Assembly (NCBI RefSeq): GCF_001661675.2 | Contig: NZ_CP019602.1 | Coordinates: forward strand, 2,829,501 to 2,893,500 | Length of the DNA: 64,000 nt | Origin: Croceicoccus marinus | Lineage (GTDB): Bacteria > Pseudomonadota > Alphaproteobacteria > Sphingomonadales > Sphingomonadaceae | Direction of reading: 5' to 3' | Shown: positions 20,896 through 48,710 of the stretch, one piece after another | How the letters are laid out: each line of letters starts with the position of its first letter | How positions within the stretch are numbered: the stretch's first letter is position 1 | The notes under the pieces: model-generated | Told to the model about the DNA's origin: nothing | The model's input: the letters and a program-made list of their open reading frames with translations, nothing else | The model's database searches: none | Translations under genes and position numbers: made by a program

Positions 20896-21572
20896 CGACG
20901 CACCCCGCCTTTGCTTCGTGATCCAGCCTGTCCAAGCCGACCGACGATGATCCCCGATTCGTCGTCCGTAACAGAGGGTTCCACGTGGAACATCGATTGC
21001 CAACCCGGCTCTGCCCCTAATTCGTCAGCAGCACTGCGGCCCTTCGGAAGAATCCACAGGGTTGTCCCCGAAGCGAAGCGTTTTGCCAGTTCGACCAGCT
21101 TCAACATGGGAGCAAAAGCGCGGGCAGTGATCACATCGAATATCTGATCGGGTACGGCCGATGCGGGGCCGGTAAAAACCGTGACATTGTCCAGTCCAAG
21201 CTCCGATGCTGCGCGCTGAAGCCAACCCGTTCGCAATGGTCGCCGCTCGACCAGCGTGAAATGGCTCGCCGGGTCGAGGATCGCGTTCACCAGCCCCGGA
21301 AGGCCCGCGCCCGACCCGAGATCGATCCATCGCGAAGATGTTCCACGTGGAACATGAAGGAGGAGCTGCGCACTATCGATGATGTGCCTTGTCCAGATAA
21401 TGGGTTGGGTCGCGCGCGCGATCAGGTTCTGATTTTCAGCCTCTTCCAGCAGCATACCGACAAAGCGATCCAATTGCTGCAGCGTATTCGCGTCGGTACC
21501 AAGATTTTGTTCGAGCCATGCAATGGCCTTGGCGCGATCTTCGGGATCAACGCTGTTCTGGGTGTTGGTCAT
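20892..21572 (-). CDS. rsmG: 16S rRNA (guanine527-N7)-methyltransferase RsmG
   Basis: The 226-aa methyltransferase modifies G527 of 16S rRNA. The SAM-binding motif is [10 protein letters not shown] at about 84-93, with [10 protein letters not shown] upstream and [12 protein letters not shown] downstream as family markers. The ATG at 21572 overlaps the mnmG stop (ATGA); upstream in-frame sequence belongs to mnmG. Two parS sites lie inside the gene: one encodes HVPRGT near residues 73-78, the other encodes FHVEP near the C-terminus, where sequence is poorly conserved in the family. Confidence 0.95.
20977..20992. promoter_or_regulatory. parS-like site A (inside rsmG 3' part)
   Basis: GGTTCCACGTGGAACA differs from a perfect TGTTCCACGTGGAACA palindrome at one outer base. 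It matches the ParB-binding parS consensus and lies within rsmG, 82 bp upstream of the parA start. Confidence 0.8.
21339..21354. promoter_or_regulatory. parS-like site B (inside rsmG)
   Basis: TGTTCCACGTGGAACA is a perfect 16-bp palindrome matching parS. It is read in rsmG as part of LLHVPRGTS. Confidence 0.88.
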
Positions 21573-23428
21573 GCCGCTCGGCTGTTGGTCTGCTTGCGCA
21601 GGTTCACCACCAGCGTCGCCAGGGCCGAGGGGGTTATCCCCGCTACTCGACCCGCAGCAGCGACCGAACGGGGGCGAGCCCGGCTGAGTCGCTCGACCAT
21701 TTCGTTCGACAATCCGGGCAGAGCGGAATATTCGAACCACGATGGGATCTCGGTGGTTTCGGCGGCCCGCAGATCGCGTAGCTCCGCCTCCTGCCGCTCA
21801 AGGTAGGGTGCATAGAGCAGATCTTCCTCGATCTCGGCCATCAGGTCGCTATCGTGGCAGATATCGTCTTCTGCGGCCCATCTAGTGAACGAAGATCGAA
21901 CTTCCTCGAACCTCGCCCATTGCTTGAGGGGCATAGAACCGAGGTTTGATCGAACCGGTGTTCCACGTGAAACAATTACCGAAGGGTGGAAGTAGCGGTC
22001 GAGCCAGCTTTCGACCGCAGTTCGATCTTCTGTCCGGCGCTCGAACCATTGACGACGCTCCGGTCCGATGCAGCCGATGTGGAGGCCGATCCCGGTAAGC
22101 CGCGTTGTCGCATTATTCGCCCGAAGACGCAGCCGGTATTCCGCGCGAGCGGTCAGCATGCGATAGGGTTCAGTCACACCGTGCGGCGTCAGATCGTCGA
22201 CCATCACCGCCAAATAGCTGTTGGCCCGGTCGAGCGACGGTCCTTCCCGACCAAGGACATTCGCGGCCGCATGTAGACCTGCGAGAAGGCCTTGCGCGGC
22301 GGCTTCCTCATAGCCGGTAGTCCCATTGATCTGGCCGGCACAGAACAGGCCGGGCATCGCCTTCAACTCAAGCTGGCTGGTCAGCGCGCGCGGATCGATG
22401 TGGTCGTATTCGACGGCATAGCCCGGTTCGACGATCCTGACTTGCTCCAAGCCCTCGATCGTGCGCAGCATGCCGTGCTGGATATCCACCGGCAGCGAAG
22501 TGCTGATGCCGTTGGGATAGATCAGCGTACTGTCCAGCCCTTCCGGTTCCAGAAAGATCTGGTGGCCATCGCGGTCGGGGAAGCGATGGATCTTGTCCTC
22601 GATCGACGGACAATATCGCGGTCCGCGCGAATCGATGGCACCCGAAAACAGCGGCGACCGATCGAGTCCGCCCCGGATGATGTCATGTGCCTGCTCGTTC
22701 GTGCGGGTGATCGCGCAGAACAGTTGCGGGTTCGATCGGCCATTTGACAAGGGCGACATCAGCCATTGATCGCTATCCGAAGTCTGGCGTTCCAGGCTCT
22801 GCCAATCCACGCTGCGCCCGTCGAGCCGCGGCGGCGTGCCGGTCTTGAGCCGCGCCATCGGCAGGTCGGCTGCGCGCAATTGCTCGGCCAGTCGCTTGGC
22901 GCCGCTTTCACCGATCCGGCCGCCCTCGAACCGCTCCTCTCCCCGGAACAGCCGTCCGCCGAGAAACGTGCCGGTGCAGAGGATAACAGCCCCCGAAGCA
23001 AGCCGCGTTCCATCGGCGAGGATGACGCCGCCGACACGGTCGCCTTTCAGGATAAGGGCCGCCACCTCGCCCTCGATCTCGGTGCAATTGTCGGTCTTGG
23101 CGATCATCGCCTGGATGGCTTCGCGGAAGAGGCGGCGGTCGGCCTGGACGCGCGGGCCCTGCACCGCGCTACCCTTGGAGCGATTGAGCATGCGATAGTG
23201 GATCGCCGCATGGTCCGCCGCCCGCGCGATCAGCCCGTCGAATGCATCGACTTCGCGGACCAGATGCCCTTTGCCGAGCCCGCCAATCGCTGGATTGCAG
23301 GACATGGCGCCCGTTTTCGCCTTGTCGAAGGTCACCAGCGCGACGGATGCACCCATGCGGGCAGCGGCGGCGGCCGCCTCGCAACCGGCATGACCGGCGC
23401 CCACGACGATGACATCGAATTGAAGCAT
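21569..23428 (-). CDS. mnmG: tRNA uridine-34 carboxymethylaminomethyl-modification enzyme MnmG (GidA)
   Basis: The 619-aa FAD protein works with MnmE to install cmnm5 groups on U34 of certain tRNAs. The FAD-binding start is [21 protein letters not shown]. Family blocks [76 protein letters not shown] and [15 protein letters not shown] are all intact, and length is normal. It is separated from mnmE by 78 bp holding a parS site; its stop overlaps the rsmG ATG. A third intragenic parS (site C) encodes VSRGTPV. Confidence 0.97.
21959..21974. promoter_or_regulatory. parS-like site C (inside mnmG)
   Basis: TGTTCCACGTGAAACA fits the alphaproteobacterial consensus TGTTNCACGTGAAACA exactly. It lies in mnmG, where the minus strand reads VSRGTP. 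Confidence 0.88.
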
Positions 23429-23488
23429 GGTCCGCCCATACAGCGCGTCAATCGGACCGTCAAAGCGGAAGCGACAGCCCGCCCCGGA

Positions 23489-23504
23489 TGTTCCACGTGG
23501 AACA
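23489..23504. promoter_or_regulatory. parS-like site D (mnmE-mnmG gap)
   Basis: TGTTCCACGTGGAACA is a perfect palindrome in the 78-bp gap between mnmG and mnmE, two bases from the mnmE stop codon. Confidence 0.88.
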
Positions 23505-29593: not shown

Positions 29594-30622
29594 TCAGGGC
29601 CGTTGCCAGCCGCGCACGGCCGCCAGCAGCGCCTCGACATGTTCGATCGGGGTGAACTGGCCGATCCCGTGGCCCAGGTTGAACACATGCGGCCGATGCG
29701 CGCAGGCATCCAGGATGAAGCGCACCCGGCTCTCGAGCTCCGGTCCGCCCGCCAGCAGGCGCAGCGGATCGAGATTGCCCTGAAGCGGCATGTTCTCGGG
29801 CAGTTCACGCGCTGCCCACGCGATATCCACCGTCTCGTCCACACCCACCGCGTCGACCAGGGTCTCCTTGGCATAGGACACCAACTTCTCGCCCGCGCCC
29901 TTGGGGAAGCCGATGATCGGAACGCCGGGACAGCGCTGGCGTACGGCACTCACGATGCGCGCGGTCGGCGCGATCACCCAGCGGCCGAACTCGTCGGGCG
30001 CGAGGCTGCCGGCCCAGCTGTCGAAGATCTGCACCGCTTCGGCCCCCGCCTCGATCTGGCCGACCAGATAATCGCTGGTGACGTCGACGATGGCATCGAT
30101 GATCGCCTGAAAACCTTGCGGATCGCCATAGGCCATGGCGCGGGTCTCGTGCTGGTCGCGGCTACCCTCGCCGTTGACCATATAGGTCGCGACCGTCCAC
30201 GGCGCCCCCGCAAAGCCCAGCATGGTCTGCTCAGGGCCAAGCTGGGCCCTTACCCGCTCCACCGTACGATAGATCGGGGAAAGGCGCTGTGGCACGGCTT
30301 CCAGCGCCTTCAGCGCATGATCGGCAAGCTTGGGCGAAAGCCTTGGTCCCTCGCCCGCCAGGAATTCCAGGTGCTGACCCATCGCATGGGGCACGATCAG
30401 GATGTCGGAAAACAGGATGGCCCCGTCGAAACCGAAGCGCCGCAAGGGCTGCATCGTGATTTCGGCCGCGGCCTCGCTGTCATACACCAGCGCAAGGAAT
30501 CCGCCCTTTTCCGCGCGCAATGCGCGATATTCGGGAAGGTAGCGCCCCGCCTGCCGCATCATCCAGATCGGGCGACGGTCGAGATTCATGCCCTTGAGCG
30601 TATCGAGAAGAGGACCTGCCAT
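29594..30622 (-). CDS. hemE: Uroporphyrinogen decarboxylase
   Basis: The 342-aa cytoplasmic enzyme converts uroporphyrinogen III to coproporphyrinogen III. The signature RRPIWMMRQAGRYLPEYRALR is near the N-terminus, with GFAGAPWTVATYMVNG and FDSWAGSL further on and a C-terminal FNLGHGIGQFTPIEHVEAL. Length is normal. It is the first gene leftward of the candidate origin, as hemE is in Caulobacter. Upstream on the minus strand are an AT-rich stretch (TATAAG) and a GGAG ribosome-binding site. Confidence 0.97.
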   Translation of the reverse strand: MAGPLLDTLKGMNLDRRPIWMMRQAGRYLPEYRALRAEKGGFLALVYDSEAAAEITMQPLRRFGFDGAILFSDILIVPHAMGQHLEFLAGEGPRLSPKLADHALKALEAVPQRLSPIYRTVERVRAQLGPEQTMLGFAGAPWTVATYMVNGEGSRDQHETRAMAYGDPQGFQAIIDAIVDVTSDYLVGQIEAGAEAVQIFDSWAGSLAPDEFGRWVIAPTARIVSAVRQRCPGVPIIGFPKGAGEKLVSYAKETLVDAVGVDETVDIAWAARELPENMPLQGNLDPLRLLAGGPELESRVRFILDACAHRPHVFNLGHGIGQFTPIEHVEALLAAVRGWQRP

Positions 30623-30673
30623 GATTCTCCAAAAGAAAGATTCTTATAATTGGTTGAAGGACTCTGTTGGTCC

Positions 30674-30682
30674 TGTGGATAT
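30674..30682 (-). promoter_or_regulatory. DnaA-box-like site
   Basis: TGTGGATAT is the reverse complement of ATATCCACA, one base from the consensus TTATCCACA. It lies next to the AT-rich edge of the hemE-ppsR gap. Confidence 0.5.
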
Positions 30683-30927
30683 CGGGGATTGCCGCGATTG
30701 CCCGAATTATCACCGCATGACCACCGCAAATTGCCGATCCCGAATCCGCACCGGCCTTGAGTCAAACGCAAGTTCTTCGCCTTATGAACAGGCTGTGGGC
30801 GAATGGGGGCCCCTGTCCAGAACTCGGCGCGAACAGGACTCGCAGTGGGGACGGAATCGGTCGTTTTGCTTGTCCCCGGCTTCGTCCCATGATTTATCGG
30901 CCTGATCGTCCACAGGCTGCCGAACCG

Positions 30928-30991
30928 GCCTGCCCGCTATCAGGCCTGCCCGCCAACAGGCCCGCCCGAAAACAGGCCCGCCCGAAAACAG
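30928..30991. repeat. Four tandem 16-bp repeats in the candidate origin
   Basis: Units are GCCTGCCCGCTATCAG, GCCTGCCCGCCAACAG, then GCCCGCCCGAAAACAG twice. The last two are identical. They run directly into the ppsR upstream region; a degenerate partial unit may precede them at 30916. They look like iterons for an origin-binding protein, or a recent slippage expansion. Confidence 0.85.
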
Positions 30992-31007
30992 GAATGCCCC
31001 TAGCGCA

Positions 31008-31853
31008 ATGACTCGCCTGCACCTGCATCTTCTGTCGGATTCCACGGGCGAGACGCTGGAAATGATCGCCAAGGCGGCGCTCGCGCAGTTCGAGGGGGCC
31101 GATGTCGACCGCCATTTCTGGCCGATGGTCCGCTCGCACCAGCATCTCGACCGCATCATGGGCGAGATCACGCGCAATCCGGGGCTGGTGCTGTTCACCC
31201 TGGCCAATATGGAAATCCGCGAACGGCTGGAAGCCAAGTGCCGCGACGCCGGACTTGCCACCGTGTCCGCGCTGGATGAGGTGACGCGCCGGCTGTCCAG
31301 CCTGCTGGGGCAGGAAGCGCATGCGCGCCCCGGCCGCCAGCACCGCATGGACGAAGCCTATTTCGCGCGGGTGGAAGCGATCCAGTTCACCATCGCCCAT
31401 GACGACGGGCTGATGTGGGAGGAGTGGGAGGAAGCCGATATCGTGCTGGCGGGCGTATCGCGCACGTCGAAGACGCCGACCTCGATCTATCTGGCCAATC
31501 GCGGGTTTCGCACCGCCAATATCCCCATCGTGGTCGAATCGCCGCCGCCCAGGACCCTGTTCGGTCTGAAGAAACCGCTGGTGGTGGGGCTGACCACCTC
31601 GCCCGACCGGCTGATCCAGATCCGGCGCAACCGCCTGCTGTCGCTCAACCAGGCGCCCGAGACCGATTATGTCGATCACGACCGGGTGGAAAAGGAACTG
31701 AAATTCGCGCGGCGCATGTTCGCCGACAACGGCTGGCCGGTGATCGACGTCACCCGCCGCTCGATCGAGGAAACCGCCGCGGCGGTGATCAACCTGGTGA
31801 ACGAGCGGCAGAGCGGCCTGTCCAAGGGCAATACGGGTCCCAAGCCGGTATGA
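31008..31853 (+). CDS. ppsR: Bifunctional kinase/pyrophosphorylase of the PPSR/PDRP (DUF299) family
   Basis: The 281-aa protein starts [25 protein letters not shown] and has the P-loop [12 protein letters not shown] at about 147-158 followed by [14 protein letters not shown], all typical of DUF299. The family phosphorylates and dephosphorylates PEP synthase or pyruvate phosphate dikinase using ADP and phosphate; which target applies here is not visible. It is the first gene rightward of the candidate origin, equivalent in position to CC_0001 of Caulobacter. Its stop overlaps the maf ATG. Confidence 0.93.
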
Positions 31854-38093: not shown

Positions 38094-38731
38094 CCGCCCA
38101 CTCTTTACCGACCGCCCTGCCCTCGCCCCTGATCCTTCACGAGGATCCCGTCAGCGGCAATTGCTACAAGATCAGGCTGACGGCGGCGCTGCTGGACATC
38201 CCGATCGAGCGCCGGTTCTATGACATCACCAAGGGCGAAACCCGCACCGAGCGGTTTCTGGCCGAAGTCGATGCCAATGGCCGCATTCCGGTGCTGCAGG
38301 TGGGCGAGCGATTCCTGCCCGAAAGCAATGCCGCCTGTTTCTATCTGGCCGACGGATCCGACCTGATCCCCTCGGGCCGGTTCGAACGCGCCGCCATGCT
38401 GCGCTGGATGTTCTTCGAACAGTACCAGCACGAACCCAATATCGCGACCATGCGATACTGGCTGCACGTCCTTGGCGAAGCGAATCTGTCGGACGAACAG
38501 CGCGGCCTGATGCCGATGAAACGCAGCGGCGGCGAAGCGGCTCTGGCACTGATGGACCGGCATCTGGCGCGCCGCGACTGGTTCGTGGGCGATGCCTGCT
38601 CGCTCGCCGATATCGTGCTGTTCGCCTATACCAATGTGGCGCACGAAGGGGGCTTCTCGCTGGACGAATATGACGCGGTTCGCGGCTGGATCCGGCGCAT
38701 GCGCGCCCTGCCCCGTTTCGCGGCGATGTGA
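38090..38731 (+). CDS. Glutathione S-transferase family protein
   Basis: The 213-aa protein has a thioredoxin-like N-terminal domain (LILHEDPVSGNCYKIRLTAALLDIPIE..., with NGRIPVLQVGERFLPESNAACFYLA giving the cis-proline and ES glutathione site) and an all-helical C-terminal domain containing GDACSLADIVLFAYTNVA. The substrate is unknown. Coupling by ATGA to the quinone oxidoreductase suggests a joint role in detoxifying electrophiles or quinones; this is inference. An intrinsic terminator follows 71 bp after the stop. Confidence 0.9.
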   Translation: MTAHSLPTALPSPLILHEDPVSGNCYKIRLTAALLDIPIERRFYDITKGETRTERFLAEVDANGRIPVLQVGERFLPESNAACFYLADGSDLIPSGRFERAAMLRWMFFEQYQHEPNIATMRYWLHVLGEANLSDEQRGLMPMKRSGGEAALALMDRHLARRDWFVGDACSLADIVLFAYTNVAHEGGFSLDEYDAVRGWIRRMRALPRFAAM

Positions 38732-38802
38732 CGCTGAATCGGGGCCGCAAGCGGGAACCCCTTGCCTGCACGGGCCGGATCGCCTAGATGCGAAAGGCAA
38801 GC

Positions 38803-38837
38803 GGCCGCTCCGGTAAGGGGCGGCCCTTATCGTTTTT
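38803..38837 (+). terminator. Intrinsic terminator after the GST gene
   Basis: GGCCGCTCC pairs over 9 bp (one T-G) with GGGGCGGCC around loop GGTAA, followed by CTTATCGTTTTT. Confidence 0.8.
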
Positions 38838-38914
38838 CCGCCCCGCGCATCGCCGGATTTTCCCCGAAAGAATGTCCGGCCCGCGCCACGGGGCCCATGC
38901 GAAAGGTTCACTTC

Positions 38915-39619
38915 GTGAGCACGAAACAGGCCACTCCGCTGATGCCGCACGCGACCGCCAGCTGGCTGATCGACAACACCGGCCTTACGTTCGAGCAGAT
39001 CGCCGAGTTCTGCGGCCTCCACATGCTGGAGGTGCAGGCGATGGCCGACGATCTGGCCGGCGCGAAATACACCGGCCGCGATCCTGTCCGCGCGGGCGAA
39101 CTGACCCATGAAGAGATCGAGAAGGGCCAGAACGACCCCGAATATGTGCTGAAGATGCACCGGGCGCCGGTTCAGGTCCAGCGTACCAAGGGACCGCGCT
39201 ATACCCCGGTGTCCAAGCGCCAGGACAAGCCCGACGGCATCGCCTGGCTGATCCGCAACCACCCCGAGATTTCGGATGCGCAGATCGGCAAGCTGATCGG
39301 CACCACGCGCAACACCATCGGCGCGATCCGCGACCGGTCGCACTGGAACATCCAGAACATCAATCCCAAGGATCCGGTGACGCTGGGCCTGTGCTCGCAG
39401 CGCGAACTGGACGCGGCGGTGGCAAAGGCGTCCAAGAACCTGCCCGAAGGCAGCCAGCCGGTGACCGATACGCGTCTGGTCGATGACCGCCAGGCGCTGA
39501 TCGACGAGCTGAAAAAGGAGCGCGAGGACGCTGCCCGCGCCGCCGTCGAAGCCGCGCAGGAGGCCGAGGCCGAGGCATGGCTCGCCGCCCGCCGCGCCGA
39601 GGGCGTGCCAGAGGAATAA
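38915..39619 (+). CDS. trcR: Cell-cycle transcriptional regulator TrcR (DUF1013)
   Basis: The 234-aa protein matches the alphaproteobacterial TrcR/DUF1013 family: MPHATASWLIDNTGLTFEQIAEFCGLHMLEVQAMAD at the N-terminus, then a second helix-turn-helix-like unit DGIAWLIRNHPEISDAQIGKLIGTTRNTIGAIRDRSHWN. It ends in a long Glu/Ala/Arg coiled-coil tail. The family is tied to cell-cycle transcription. GTG at 38915 is preferred because AAAGG lies 8 bases upstream and homologues begin close to this point; ATG 38897 is the alternative. It is monocistronic, bounded by terminators on both sides. Confidence 0.9.
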   Translation: MSTKQATPLMPHATASWLIDNTGLTFEQIAEFCGLHMLEVQAMADDLAGAKYTGRDPVRAGELTHEEIEKGQNDPEYVLKMHRAPVQVQRTKGPRYTPVSKRQDKPDGIAWLIRNHPEISDAQIGKLIGTTRNTIGAIRDRSHWNIQNINPKDPVTLGLCSQRELDAAVAKASKNLPEGSQPVTDTRLVDDRQALIDELKKEREDAARAAVEAAQEAEAEAWLAARRAEGVPEE

Positions 39620-39650
39620 GCGCCCGCCCGCAATTGCGGCATGAAACGAC

Positions 39651-39684
39651 AAGGCCCGGTGCGACAGCGCGCCGGGCCTTTTTC
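39651..39684 (+). terminator. Intrinsic terminator after trcR
   Basis: A 10-bp stem GGCCCGGTGC/GCGCCGGGCC (one T-G pair) with a 6-base loop is followed by TTTTTCG. Confidence 0.88.
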
Positions 39685-39782
39685 GTTGCGCGCTGCAAAT
39701 AGCGCCGCAGATGCGAAGGCGATCCCGCAGCTGCGAGGCGGCTATCTTGCCGAAAATCCGCGCAAAAGGCACAATAACGCCC

Positions 39783-41519
39783 ATGAACGCGCATAATATC
39801 GGGGAGAACAGGCCGCCGCCCGAATGGCCCGTCTGGAACGACAGATGGCTGGATGCGGGCGGCCGATACCGTCATCCCGTCGAATGGCAATCCGAATTCA
39901 AGCCGCTTTCGGTCCCCGACATGTTCGACCGCGGCGTGACCCTGGCGGGCAAGGAACCGATCGCCGATTTCCTGGGCAAGCGGACCAGTTACCGTGAAGC
40001 GATGGCACAGGCGCGCCGGATCGCGGCCGCGCTCCAGCGGTCAGGGATAGGCAAGGGGGACCGGGTCGGGCTGTTCCTGCCCAATGTGCCGCTCTACCTC
40101 ACAGCCTATTACGGCATCATGATCGCGGGCGCGACGGCGGTGAACTTCTCGCCCCTGTACACGGCGCAGGAATTGTCCGCGCAAGTGGCCGATTCGGGCG
40201 TCACGATGCTGTTCACCGTCAATTCCAGCGCGCTGCTGCCCACCGCGATCGAGGTTCTGGACCAGTCGGCGGTCGACCGGCTGGTCGTCGGCGATCTGCC
40301 GTCGATGATGCCGTGGTGGATGGGGCTGGCGATGCGGCTGCTGAAAGGCAGCGAGCTGACCGCCCTGCCCGCCGACCCGCGGATCACGCCGATCGACGCC
40401 TTCACTCGCGGCGTGGGCGAACCTGTTCCCGTCGCCATCGATCCCGAACGCGACATCGCCTTGCTGCAATATACCGGCGGCACGACCGGCAGGCCCAAGG
40501 GTGCGATGCTTTCGCACCAGAACCTGACGGCAAATGCGCGCCAGAGCCTGCGGATCGATCCGCATCGCGGCGAGCGCGACGTGATGATCGGCGTGCTGCC
40601 GCTGTTCCACGTGTTCGCCAATACGGTGGTGCTGAACCGCACGGTGCTGAACGGCGGGATGATCGTGATGCTGCCGCGCTTCGATGCGAAGCAGACGCTG
40701 AAGGCGCTGAACCGCACGCAGGCGACCGCGTTGCCCGGCGTGCCCACCATGTACCAGGCGCTGCTGGACTGCCCGGCGGTCGCCAGCACCGATTTCACCT
40801 CGCTGCGGGTGTGCATTTCGGGCGGCGCGCCCCTTCCCCTGCCGCTGAAGCACAAGTTCGAAAGCGTGACCGGCGCGCATGTGGTCGAAGGCTATGGGCT
40901 GACGGAAAGTTCGGGGGTCGTGTCGACCAATCCCTTCGGCAGCCCGGAGGACGAGAAGCCCGGCACGATCGGGCAGGTCATGCCCGGCACCAGCATCCGC
41001 CTGCTGGACAAGGAGGACCCGGAAAGGCTGGCCGCTCCGGGCGAGCCGGGGGAACTGGCGGTGAAGGGCCCGCAGATCATGCTTGGCTACTGGAACCGGC
41101 CCGAGGGGCACAGCGTCTTCCAGGACGGCTATCTGCGCACAGGCGATGTCGCGGCCATCGACGAGGACGGCTTCCTCAGCATCGTCGACCGCATCAAGGA
41201 CATGATCGCGGTCGGCGGCTTCAAGGTCTTCCCCAGCCAGATCGAGGAAGTGCTGCTGGACCGCGCCGGCGTGCGCGAGGCGCTGGTCGTCGGCGTGCCC
41301 GACGATTACCTGGGCGAAGTGCCCAAGGCCTTCATCACGCTCGATCCCGGCAGCACCGACGATGCGGAAACGCTGAAGTCATGGGTCAACAGCCGCGTCG
41401 GCAAGCACGAGCGGCTGGCGGATGTGGTGATCCGCAAGGAATTGCCCAAGACGATGATCGGCAAGCTGGACCGCAAGGCGCTGCGCGACGAGATTGCCGC
41501 CGAAGCAGGCTCGGCCTAG
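39783..41519 (+). CDS. Long-chain acyl-CoA synthetase (AMP-binding)
   Basis: The 578-aa adenylating enzyme activates fatty acids to acyl-CoA. The ATP motif YTGGTTGRPKGAMLSH is near 231, then GVLPLFHVFANT, the acyl-pocket GYGLTESSGVVSTNP, GYLRTGDVA, and the C-terminal KDMIAVGGFKVFPSQIEE and GKLDRKALRDE. It is closest in pattern to FadD-type ligases. The ATG at 39783 follows the trcR terminator by about 100 bp. Its stop shares CTAG with the converging bactofilin gene. Confidence 0.92.
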   Translation: MNAHNIGENRPPPEWPVWNDRWLDAGGRYRHPVEWQSEFKPLSVPDMFDRGVTLAGKEPIADFLGKRTSYREAMAQARRIAAALQRSGIGKGDRVGLFLPNVPLYLTAYYGIMIAGATAVNFSPLYTAQELSAQVADSGVTMLFTVNSSALLPTAIEVLDQSAVDRLVVGDLPSMMPWWMGLAMRLLKGSELTALPADPRITPIDAFTRGVGEPVPVAIDPERDIALLQYTGGTTGRPKGAMLSHQNLTANARQSLRIDPHRGERDVMIGVLPLFHVFANTVVLNRTVLNGGMIVMLPRFDAKQTLKALNRTQATALPGVPTMYQALLDCPAVASTDFTSLRVCISGGAPLPLPLKHKFESVTGAHVVEGYGLTESSGVVSTNPFGSPEDEKPGTIGQVMPGTSIRLLDKEDPERLAAPGEPGELAVKGPQIMLGYWNRPEGHSVFQDGYLRTGDVAAIDEDGFLSIVDRIKDMIAVGGFKVFPSQIEEVLLDRAGVREALVVGVPDDYLGEVPKAFITLDPGSTDDAETLKSWVNSRVGKHERLADVVIRKELPKTMIGKLDRKALRDEIAAEAGSA

Positions 41520-47552: not shown

Positions 47553-48710
47553 ATGCGGCGCACGTTCGTCCTGGCCATCGTCCCCCTTGCCGCCGCGCTG
47601 GCGCTGGTCCCGGCATCCGCGCAGATCGCGGGCGACGCCATTTCCGCCGACAGCCTGGCCGAGGCGCAGGCCGCCCGGATCGAGGCGCGGGAGCGTGCCC
47701 GCACGCTTGCCGACCGCGCCGCGACGATCGAGGACACGGCGCTGAAGGCCGAGGCGCAGGCGGAAGCGCTGTCGGCCCGCATCGCCGAATCGGAAGCCCT
47801 GATCGAGGAAGCGCGCCAGCAGGAAACCCTGGCCGCCGACCGGCTGGGGTTCCTGCGCGAGCGATTCGCGCGCCAGCGCGCGCCACTGTCGCGCATGCTG
47901 GCGGCGCTGCAGCGACTGGCTCGCAGGCCGATGGTGCTGCTGGTGCTGCGCCCTTCATCGGTGCGCGATTATGTCCGCACCCGCGCGATGGTGGCCGCGA
48001 TCACCCCTCAGATCGCGCGGCAGACGCGTTCGGTGCGCGGCGATCTGGCCGAGATGCGCGCATTGGCACAAGGCAGCGCCGCTGCGCGCGTCACGCGGCA
48101 GGAAGCAGCCACCGAACTGGCACGCCAGCGCGCCGAATTGCGCGCAAGTGGCGCCGAAAGCCGCCTTGCCGCGCGCGCGCTGGAACAGGCGGCGGGCGAG
48201 GCGCGCCGCGAGGCCACGCTGCGCGATGTCGAGGCGGACAGCATCGCCGCGCTCGCCGCGCGGCAGAGCCGCAATCGCCAGACCGAGGCGAGGCTGGCCG
48301 AACTGATCGGGCCGATCCTTCCGGCGGGGCGAGCGGAGGCAAGGTCCTCGTCGATTCGCCCCGTCATGCCCGTGCAGGGCGCGGTCCTGGCGGGCTATGG
48401 CGAACGCGATGCCGCCGGTGGCCGCTCGCGGGGGCTGAGCATCGCTCCGCAGCCGGGCGCGGCGGTCGCGGCGCCGCTGGCGGGTGAGATCGCATTCGCG
48501 CGTCCGTGGCGCGCCTATGGCACGCTGGTCATCATCCGGCACAAGGGCGGACTGCTCAGCCTGGTCGGCGGGCTGGCCGACGCGCGGGTCCGGGAAGGGC
48601 AGGCGGTGGCGCAGGGCGATGTGCTGGGCCGCGCGCCGCAGCGGGACCCCAGCGTGCTGTACGAATTGCGCCGCGCGGGCAGGCCGGTACACCCGCTGCT
48701 GGCGGTCTGA
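47553..48710 (+). CDS. envC: EnvC-like murein hydrolase activator (degenerate LytM)
   Basis: The 385-aa periplasmic protein has a signal peptide (about 1-25, ending ASAQ), a long coiled coil (about 25-240, Ala/Glu/Arg-rich) and a C-terminal LytM fold (about 265-385). The zinc ligands are gone: the HxxxD position reads RGLSI and HxH is replaced by VLYEL. That matches EnvC/NlpD activators, which switch on amidases at the division site rather than cutting murein. It sits between rlmH and ctpA, the standard alphaproteobacterial order. Confidence 0.9.
   Translation: MRRTFVLAIVPLAAALALVPASAQIAGDAISADSLAEAQAARIEARERARTLADRAATIEDTALKAEAQAEALSARIAESEALIEEARQQETLAADRLGFLRERFARQRAPLSRMLAALQRLARRPMVLLVLRPSSVRDYVRTRAMVAAITPQIARQTRSVRGDLAEMRALAQGSAAARVTRQEAATELARQRAELRASGAESRLAARALEQAAGEARREATLRDVEADSIAALAARQSRNRQTEARLAELIGPILPAGRAEARSSSIRPVMPVQGAVLAGYGERDAAGGRSRGLSIAPQPGAAVAAPLAGEIAFARPWRAYGTLVIIRHKGGLLSLVGGLADARVREGQAVAQGDVLGRAPQRDPSVLYELRRAGRPVHPLLAV

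Follow-up and report, generated by a model that had tools for sequence, protein, structure and literature searches.

The window analysed here is a 64-kb stretch of DNA, bases 2829501-2893500 of the 3,001,363-bp contig C1 in a genome of three contigs. It contains a 385-bp intergenic region (30623..31007), our proposed oriC, flanked exactly by hemE on the minus strand (29594..30622) and by ppsR, which we take to be DUF299/COG1806, on the plus strand (31008..31853). The genes thus run outward on both sides, as the original prediction had it, and the gap occupies the hemE-COG1806/ppsR intergenic position of the hemE-linked alphaproteobacterial oriC. Both flanking products pass the NCBIfam cut-offs, as do Rho and CoaE. 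Between 19139 and 24886, ParB (by a domain model), RsmG, MnmG and MnmE also score above cut-offs. All the neighbours named in the original prediction were found, yet four of them stay under curated cut-offs: ParA, and HemJ, AroE and Maf, whose best matches are those families. Four parS-like GTTYCACGTGRAAC palindromes lie in the parA-rsmG-mnmG region beside parB (20978..23503), 7.1-9.6 kb from the gap; the claim that the stretch from mnmE to parB and parS lies inside 10 kb holds for parS but not for the far end of parB, which is 11.5 kb off. With up to two mismatches, six further parS-like sites are spread across the genome, against two for a reversed control. The G+C content of the gap is 0.58, compared with 0.646-0.670 in pieces of the window. 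In one relative with a single contig (G036:C1), ppsR is found at bases 60-854, and in another (G027:C1) dnaA is found at 58-1380; their depositors seem to have used different conventions for base 1.

The strand asymmetry of the chromosome switches at or near the gap. We sampled 39 stretches of C1 (35 of 20 kb, plus the window as four pieces) and obtained a mean GC skew of +0.0136 to the right of the gap (n=19) and of -0.0109 to its left (n=20). This signal is weak and noisy. With the terminus fixed half a contig away, the fit is best for an origin at 2.86 Mb, the gap being at 2.8603 Mb (permutation with the position left free, 0.016). The polar octamer GGGNAGGG, the E. coli KOPS octamer, was picked before counting: in the same stretches it occurs 61 times on the plus and 10 times on the minus strand to the right of the gap, and 12 and 83 times, respectively, to the left, and its strand preference reverts near 1.36 Mb, diametrically opposite the gap. 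When the gap is taken as the origin, the most polar 8-mer is GGGCAGGG (87 versus 14). The GC-skew check proposed with the original prediction, applied to sampled stretches, turned out in its favour in two relatives as well: the fit lies at 2.82 Mb for a gap at 2.824 Mb in one close relative (G005; permutation 0.006), and at 1.46 Mb for a gap at 1.508 Mb, 48 kb off, in another (G009; 0 of 500 permutations). Inside the window, the copies of GGGNAGGG at 38115-40831 still have the minus orientation and plus copies begin at 48592, which puts the local switch 10-18 kb right of the gap. Because of this local offset, skew and octamer place the origin within tens of kilobases, not to the base.

To compare the gap among relatives, we gathered loci from a HemE search (80 named loci, from which those without ppsR beside hemE were excluded) and from a PpsR search (matches in 39 of 40 related genomes, 30 loci taken). 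Merging identical family gaps left 65 distinct ones. The gap contains a conserved core (30666..30916, plus strand, 251 bp) that runs from a GTTGG block to the DnaA box called D below. The core measures 235-254 bp in 38 aligned family sequences, its ends being defined by that alignment. Among its 236 well-filled columns, 10 show no variation over the 38 sequences and 42 reach 90% agreement or more; at four-fold sites of the same set the corresponding counts are 0 and 5 of 106 (0 and 3 of 52 in ppsR, 0 and 2 of 54 in hemE). In a subset of 27 sequences, 33 of 247 core columns are invariant, compared with 0 of 62 and 0 of 64 four-fold sites, and with 7 of 269 and 14 of 337 third codon positions overall. 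This subset, which also underlies alignment A1 and the core model R1, omits 11 of the 38 sequences (near-duplicates and the most divergent ones), an omission that raises the invariant count from the 10 of 236 obtained with all 38. Mean identity is alike throughout, 0.665-0.683 in the core and barely less (0.629-0.660) at four-fold sites, so that conservation sits in islands. These include TGTGGA in box A, a GANTC site, TTGTC, TTTAT and TCCACA in box D. Conserved blocks were also delineated on the plus strand at 30699..30711 (TGCCCGAATTATC, perhaps a weak DnaA site), 30761..30774 (GTCAAACGCAAGTT), 30812..30822 (CCTGTCCAGAA, another possible weak DnaA site), 30869..30877 (CTTGTCCCC) and 30885..30898 (TCCCATGATTTATC, consensus TCCCGTGGTTTAT).

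Searched against its own genome, R1 gives a single match at E-values up to 10 (3.8e-44; 150 of 1365 candidates scored). Across 147 genomes of the order, 71 have a match at E<=0.1, 60 of them from the family to which the window belongs, and the match reaches 1e-10 in 35 of the 71; among the genomes listed, at least four members of the family are without a match. hemE and ppsR flank every one of the best 30 matches, that of the own genome among them. Among 28 loci that were not part of the alignment, L033 alone is matched convincingly by R1 (6.9e-6) and two others weakly (0.058 and 0.061), which indicates that the position is kept more widely than the sequence. Boxes A and D stand 234-239 bp apart in 48 of the 57 gaps counted, a set that omits the 8 of 65 gaps lacking one of these boxes by pattern; the nine exceptions include cases where box D is spelled otherwise or where the pattern falls elsewhere. 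In one member of the genus (L103, genome G011), the gap extends to 675 bp, with about 300 extra bp between box D and ppsR, and its core aligns.

Four DnaA-like sites with at least seven matching positions were counted in the gap, one at 8/9 (30674, minus strand) and three at 7/9 (30625, 30782 and 30906), in agreement with the 8/9 and the 7/9 site noticed originally; just one box is within one mismatch of the consensus. Box A, the predicted 8/9 DnaA box ATATCCACA (30674..30682, minus strand), is embedded in the conserved block GTTGGyCCTGTGGA. Pair C (30782..30801, plus strand) associates TTATGAACA with an inverted CTGTGGGCG; it is a 7/9 site here and comes nearer to the consensus in several sister species, where it reads, for example, TTACCCACA or TTATCCCCA. 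Box D, TCGTCCACA (30906..30914, plus strand), is a 7/9 site that fits exactly the Caulobacter DnaA consensus [TC][TCG][AG]TCCACA, as given in an extract of PMC2877005. Scored with the E. coli consensus only, the gap stands out moderately: of 686560 stretches of 385 bp sampled, 1331 reach its box score, and all the 385-bp stretches that do so in the 64-kb window overlap the gap. Perfect boxes number 11 genome-wide, with none in the gap, and a reversed control pattern likewise gives 11.

The original prediction had regarded such few and weak boxes as unusual for an oriC. The boxes are indeed weak in the window alone, but the objection is answered by the relatives, and by Caulobacter, whose origin has weak DnaA boxes itself (PMC4468827, extract). 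Over the 65 family gaps, DnaA boxes cluster well above chance, with 1.52 sites per gap within one mismatch (0.065 after shuffling) and 4.4 within two (0.67 after shuffling); seven of the 65 have no box within one mismatch. This suggests that the apparent want of strong boxes reflects sequence drift in individual species.

The AT-rich edge that was also pointed out originally is present at 30624..30663, with 12 G+C in 40 bases, and we propose it as a DNA unwinding element. G+C as low as this is found in 5253 of 678674 sampled 40-mers, a background from which one low-GC stretch was left out. That stretch (L005, C1:700001-720000) has a G+C content of 0.459 in a genome near 0.65 and is perhaps foreign DNA. 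In relatives, the 40 bases to the left of box A have a median AT content of 0.725 (lowest 0.325, n=61, four of the 65 gaps having been dropped for want of a usable box A). The repeats of the original prediction correspond to four 16-bp units, arranged head to tail in the stretch that separates box D from ppsR (30927..30990, plus strand). No such tandem is seen in any of 64 relative gaps, and single units are scattered elsewhere (11 matches in the 700 kb sampled). For these reasons we rejected the repeats as origin machinery and treated them as a recent tandem expansion.

GANTC, the CcrM methylation site, is strikingly dense in the gap. Seven sites fall within 30623..30858 (at 30623, 30639, 30660, 30742, 30759, 30837 and 30854), while the frequency over 700 kb sampled from this genome predicts 0.48 in 385 bp; the sample amounts to 23% of C1, and the dnaA stretch was included in it for holding dnaA. 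The alignment column of the site at 30742..30746 (plus strand) reads GANTC in 26 of 27 sequences. The 65 family gaps together contain 303 sites. Seven patterns with the letters permuted give counts of 19-127, and composition predicts 1.25 GANTC per gap; no family gap is without a site, nor is any of the 32 gaps from other taxa. Just two other places in the 35 sampled stretches reach seven GANTC per 385 bp, C1:2017028 and C1:2983997. The former sits at the 5' end of a CcrM-like gene, whose product carries CcrM's RAMA domain, and a perfect DnaA box adjoins it; there (L222:2675-2858, equivalent to G000:C1:2017008-2017191) the seven GANTC are packed into 164 bp. The latter (C1:2983997-2984374, in L149 and L129) lies upstream of dnaA, where up to eight sites occur in 385 bp. 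The densest 385 bp upstream of dnaA hold 4-8 GANTC in all 13 genus members checked, this genome among them, 4-6 in five of five other family members, and 0-5 in 11 members of other families with 800 bp available. A GcrA homologue is present in the genome.

Features of other origin types were sought in the same gaps. The search for CtrA sites in relatives, suggested with the original prediction, came out negative: the window's gap contains no TTAA, and none of the 65 family gaps has an exact full site TTAA-N7-TTAA, whereas 6 of 32 gaps of other taxa do. The exact IHF consensus WATCAANNNNTTR is likewise found in 0 of 65, a count of exact matches beside which degenerate sites are possible. In this the family differs from the Caulobacter origin, Cori, for which extracts report five CtrA sites and one IHF site; judged by exact sites, the gap does not look like a CtrA-controlled origin of the Cori type. 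The literature is split on how widespread CtrA sites are: PMC4468827 (extract) does not see them in other origins, whereas PMC1914354 (extract) predicts them in Wolbachia. DnaA-trios beside the anchoring box score no better than shuffles in 61 gaps (median p 0.49), which speaks against an origin of the basal unwinding system (BUS) type; deviant trios are allowed for in an extract of PMC8287927.

Could the gap be something other than an origin? hemE and ppsR diverge from it, and DnaA boxes and GANTC occur at promoters too, as at the 5' end of the ccrM-like gene; the gap might then be a divergent promoter region under DnaA and CcrM methylation and not an origin at all. We hold this to be very unlikely. 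In loci L030 and L033, where no ppsR was found and maf comes directly after hemE, the spacer nevertheless keeps the AT-rich edge, the GTTGG block and the closing TCCACA (R1 scores L033 only), and a promoter would hardly account for the near-fixed spacing of 234-239 bp in 48 of 57 gaps, for a location at the skew switch with a second switch at the antipode, or for the use of the same junction by the mapped Caulobacter origin, at least as extracts describe it.

An origin elsewhere nearby might lie, for instance, 124 kb to the right, ahead of dnaA, or at 41-48 kb in the window, where GGGNAGGG switches locally (40.8-48.6 kb). dnaA is the classical neighbour of the origin in other phyla, and upstream of it GANTC is as dense as in the gap. 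Yet in the 800 bp upstream of our dnaA, measured from the profile match, there is no box within one mismatch, so the check for a dnaA-linked origin speaks for the hemE-ppsR gap. Relatives point the same way: among 29 dnaA loci, one has 57 upstream bases, 25 have no box and three have one or two, and we rejected a dnaA-upstream origin, box-free in its own genome and with boxes in 3 of 28 relatives. Stretches of the window that do not overlap the gap fall short of its box score, and the skew fits best at the gap. An extract of PMC8116508 also reports that dnaA is not conserved close to ori in Sphingomonadales. An origin elsewhere nearby appears very improbable.

We conclude that the 385-bp hemE-ppsR gap is very probably the oriC of the 3.0-Mb main contig; its activity as an origin is what we infer from the skew switch, the conserved element and the single match of the model in the genome, which together uphold the original prediction. 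As a whole, the explanation that accounts best for the data, and in which we have high confidence, is an oriC where a DnaA complex would form on a near-fixed core and melting would take place at the AT-rich edge. DnaA would bind box A, pair C and box D, plus weaker sites in between, and assemble into a complex on the core, whose length hardly varies. Starting at box A, DnaA would melt the adjoining AT-rich edge on the hemE side, where the helicase would be loaded and from which two forks would depart outward; ParB bound at the parS cluster close by would then move the new copies. The clustered CcrM sites would leave the origin hemimethylated after firing, along with dnaA and ccrM, and this may help to time re-initiation.

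A broader reading, which we put forward as a speculation with rather low odds, is that origins in this family are near-fixed DnaA platforms of about 250 bp, free of CtrA control, IHF or trios and timed by CcrM, with the GANTC clusters of oriC and upstream of dnaA and ccrM being reset as one hemimethylated set. Such a CcrM-timed system would be a counterpart of Dam/SeqA control. Without ccrM, Caulobacter cells in minimal medium have a wild-type-like DNA content, according to an extract of PMC3973325. The work gives the origin of this chromosome a very probable place, together with a model that locates the corresponding junction in draft genomes of relatives. Most worth following are the core with its nearly constant length and the GANTC clusters held in common, and the conserved blocks and dense methylation sites can be tested one by one.

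How does this locus compare with known origins? In Sphingopyxis granuli TFA, oriC was assigned at hemE, where the intergenic region is reported to have conserved candidate DnaA boxes and a candidate unwinding element (PMC4741004, extract), and in Novosphingobium PP1Y three DnaA boxes near hemE mark oriC (PMC4059872, extract). Both predictions concern the same locus beside hemE as ours, so this kind of origin is already known in sphingomonads; as far as the extracts go, they derive from software and from comparison within Sphingopyxis. Our additions are the family-wide geometry of the core, the GANTC density and the CtrA, IHF and trio tests, with possible overlap with the supplements of these two papers; the GANTC clusters at the origin may already have been described elsewhere. 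The gap resembles BUS origins in that an AT-rich region adjoins a conserved DnaA box, and differs from them in its trio signal. Another close counterpart is the Cori of Caulobacter crescentus, mapped to the hemE-COG1806 interval, which includes an AT-rich stretch (PMC1914354, extract), in a gene order that the original prediction had recognised; several GANTC motifs are reported for Caulobacter origins (PMC3973325, extract). Likened by description and not by sequence, the two share the hemE-COG1806 junction, an AT-rich stretch, weak boxes and several GANTC sites.
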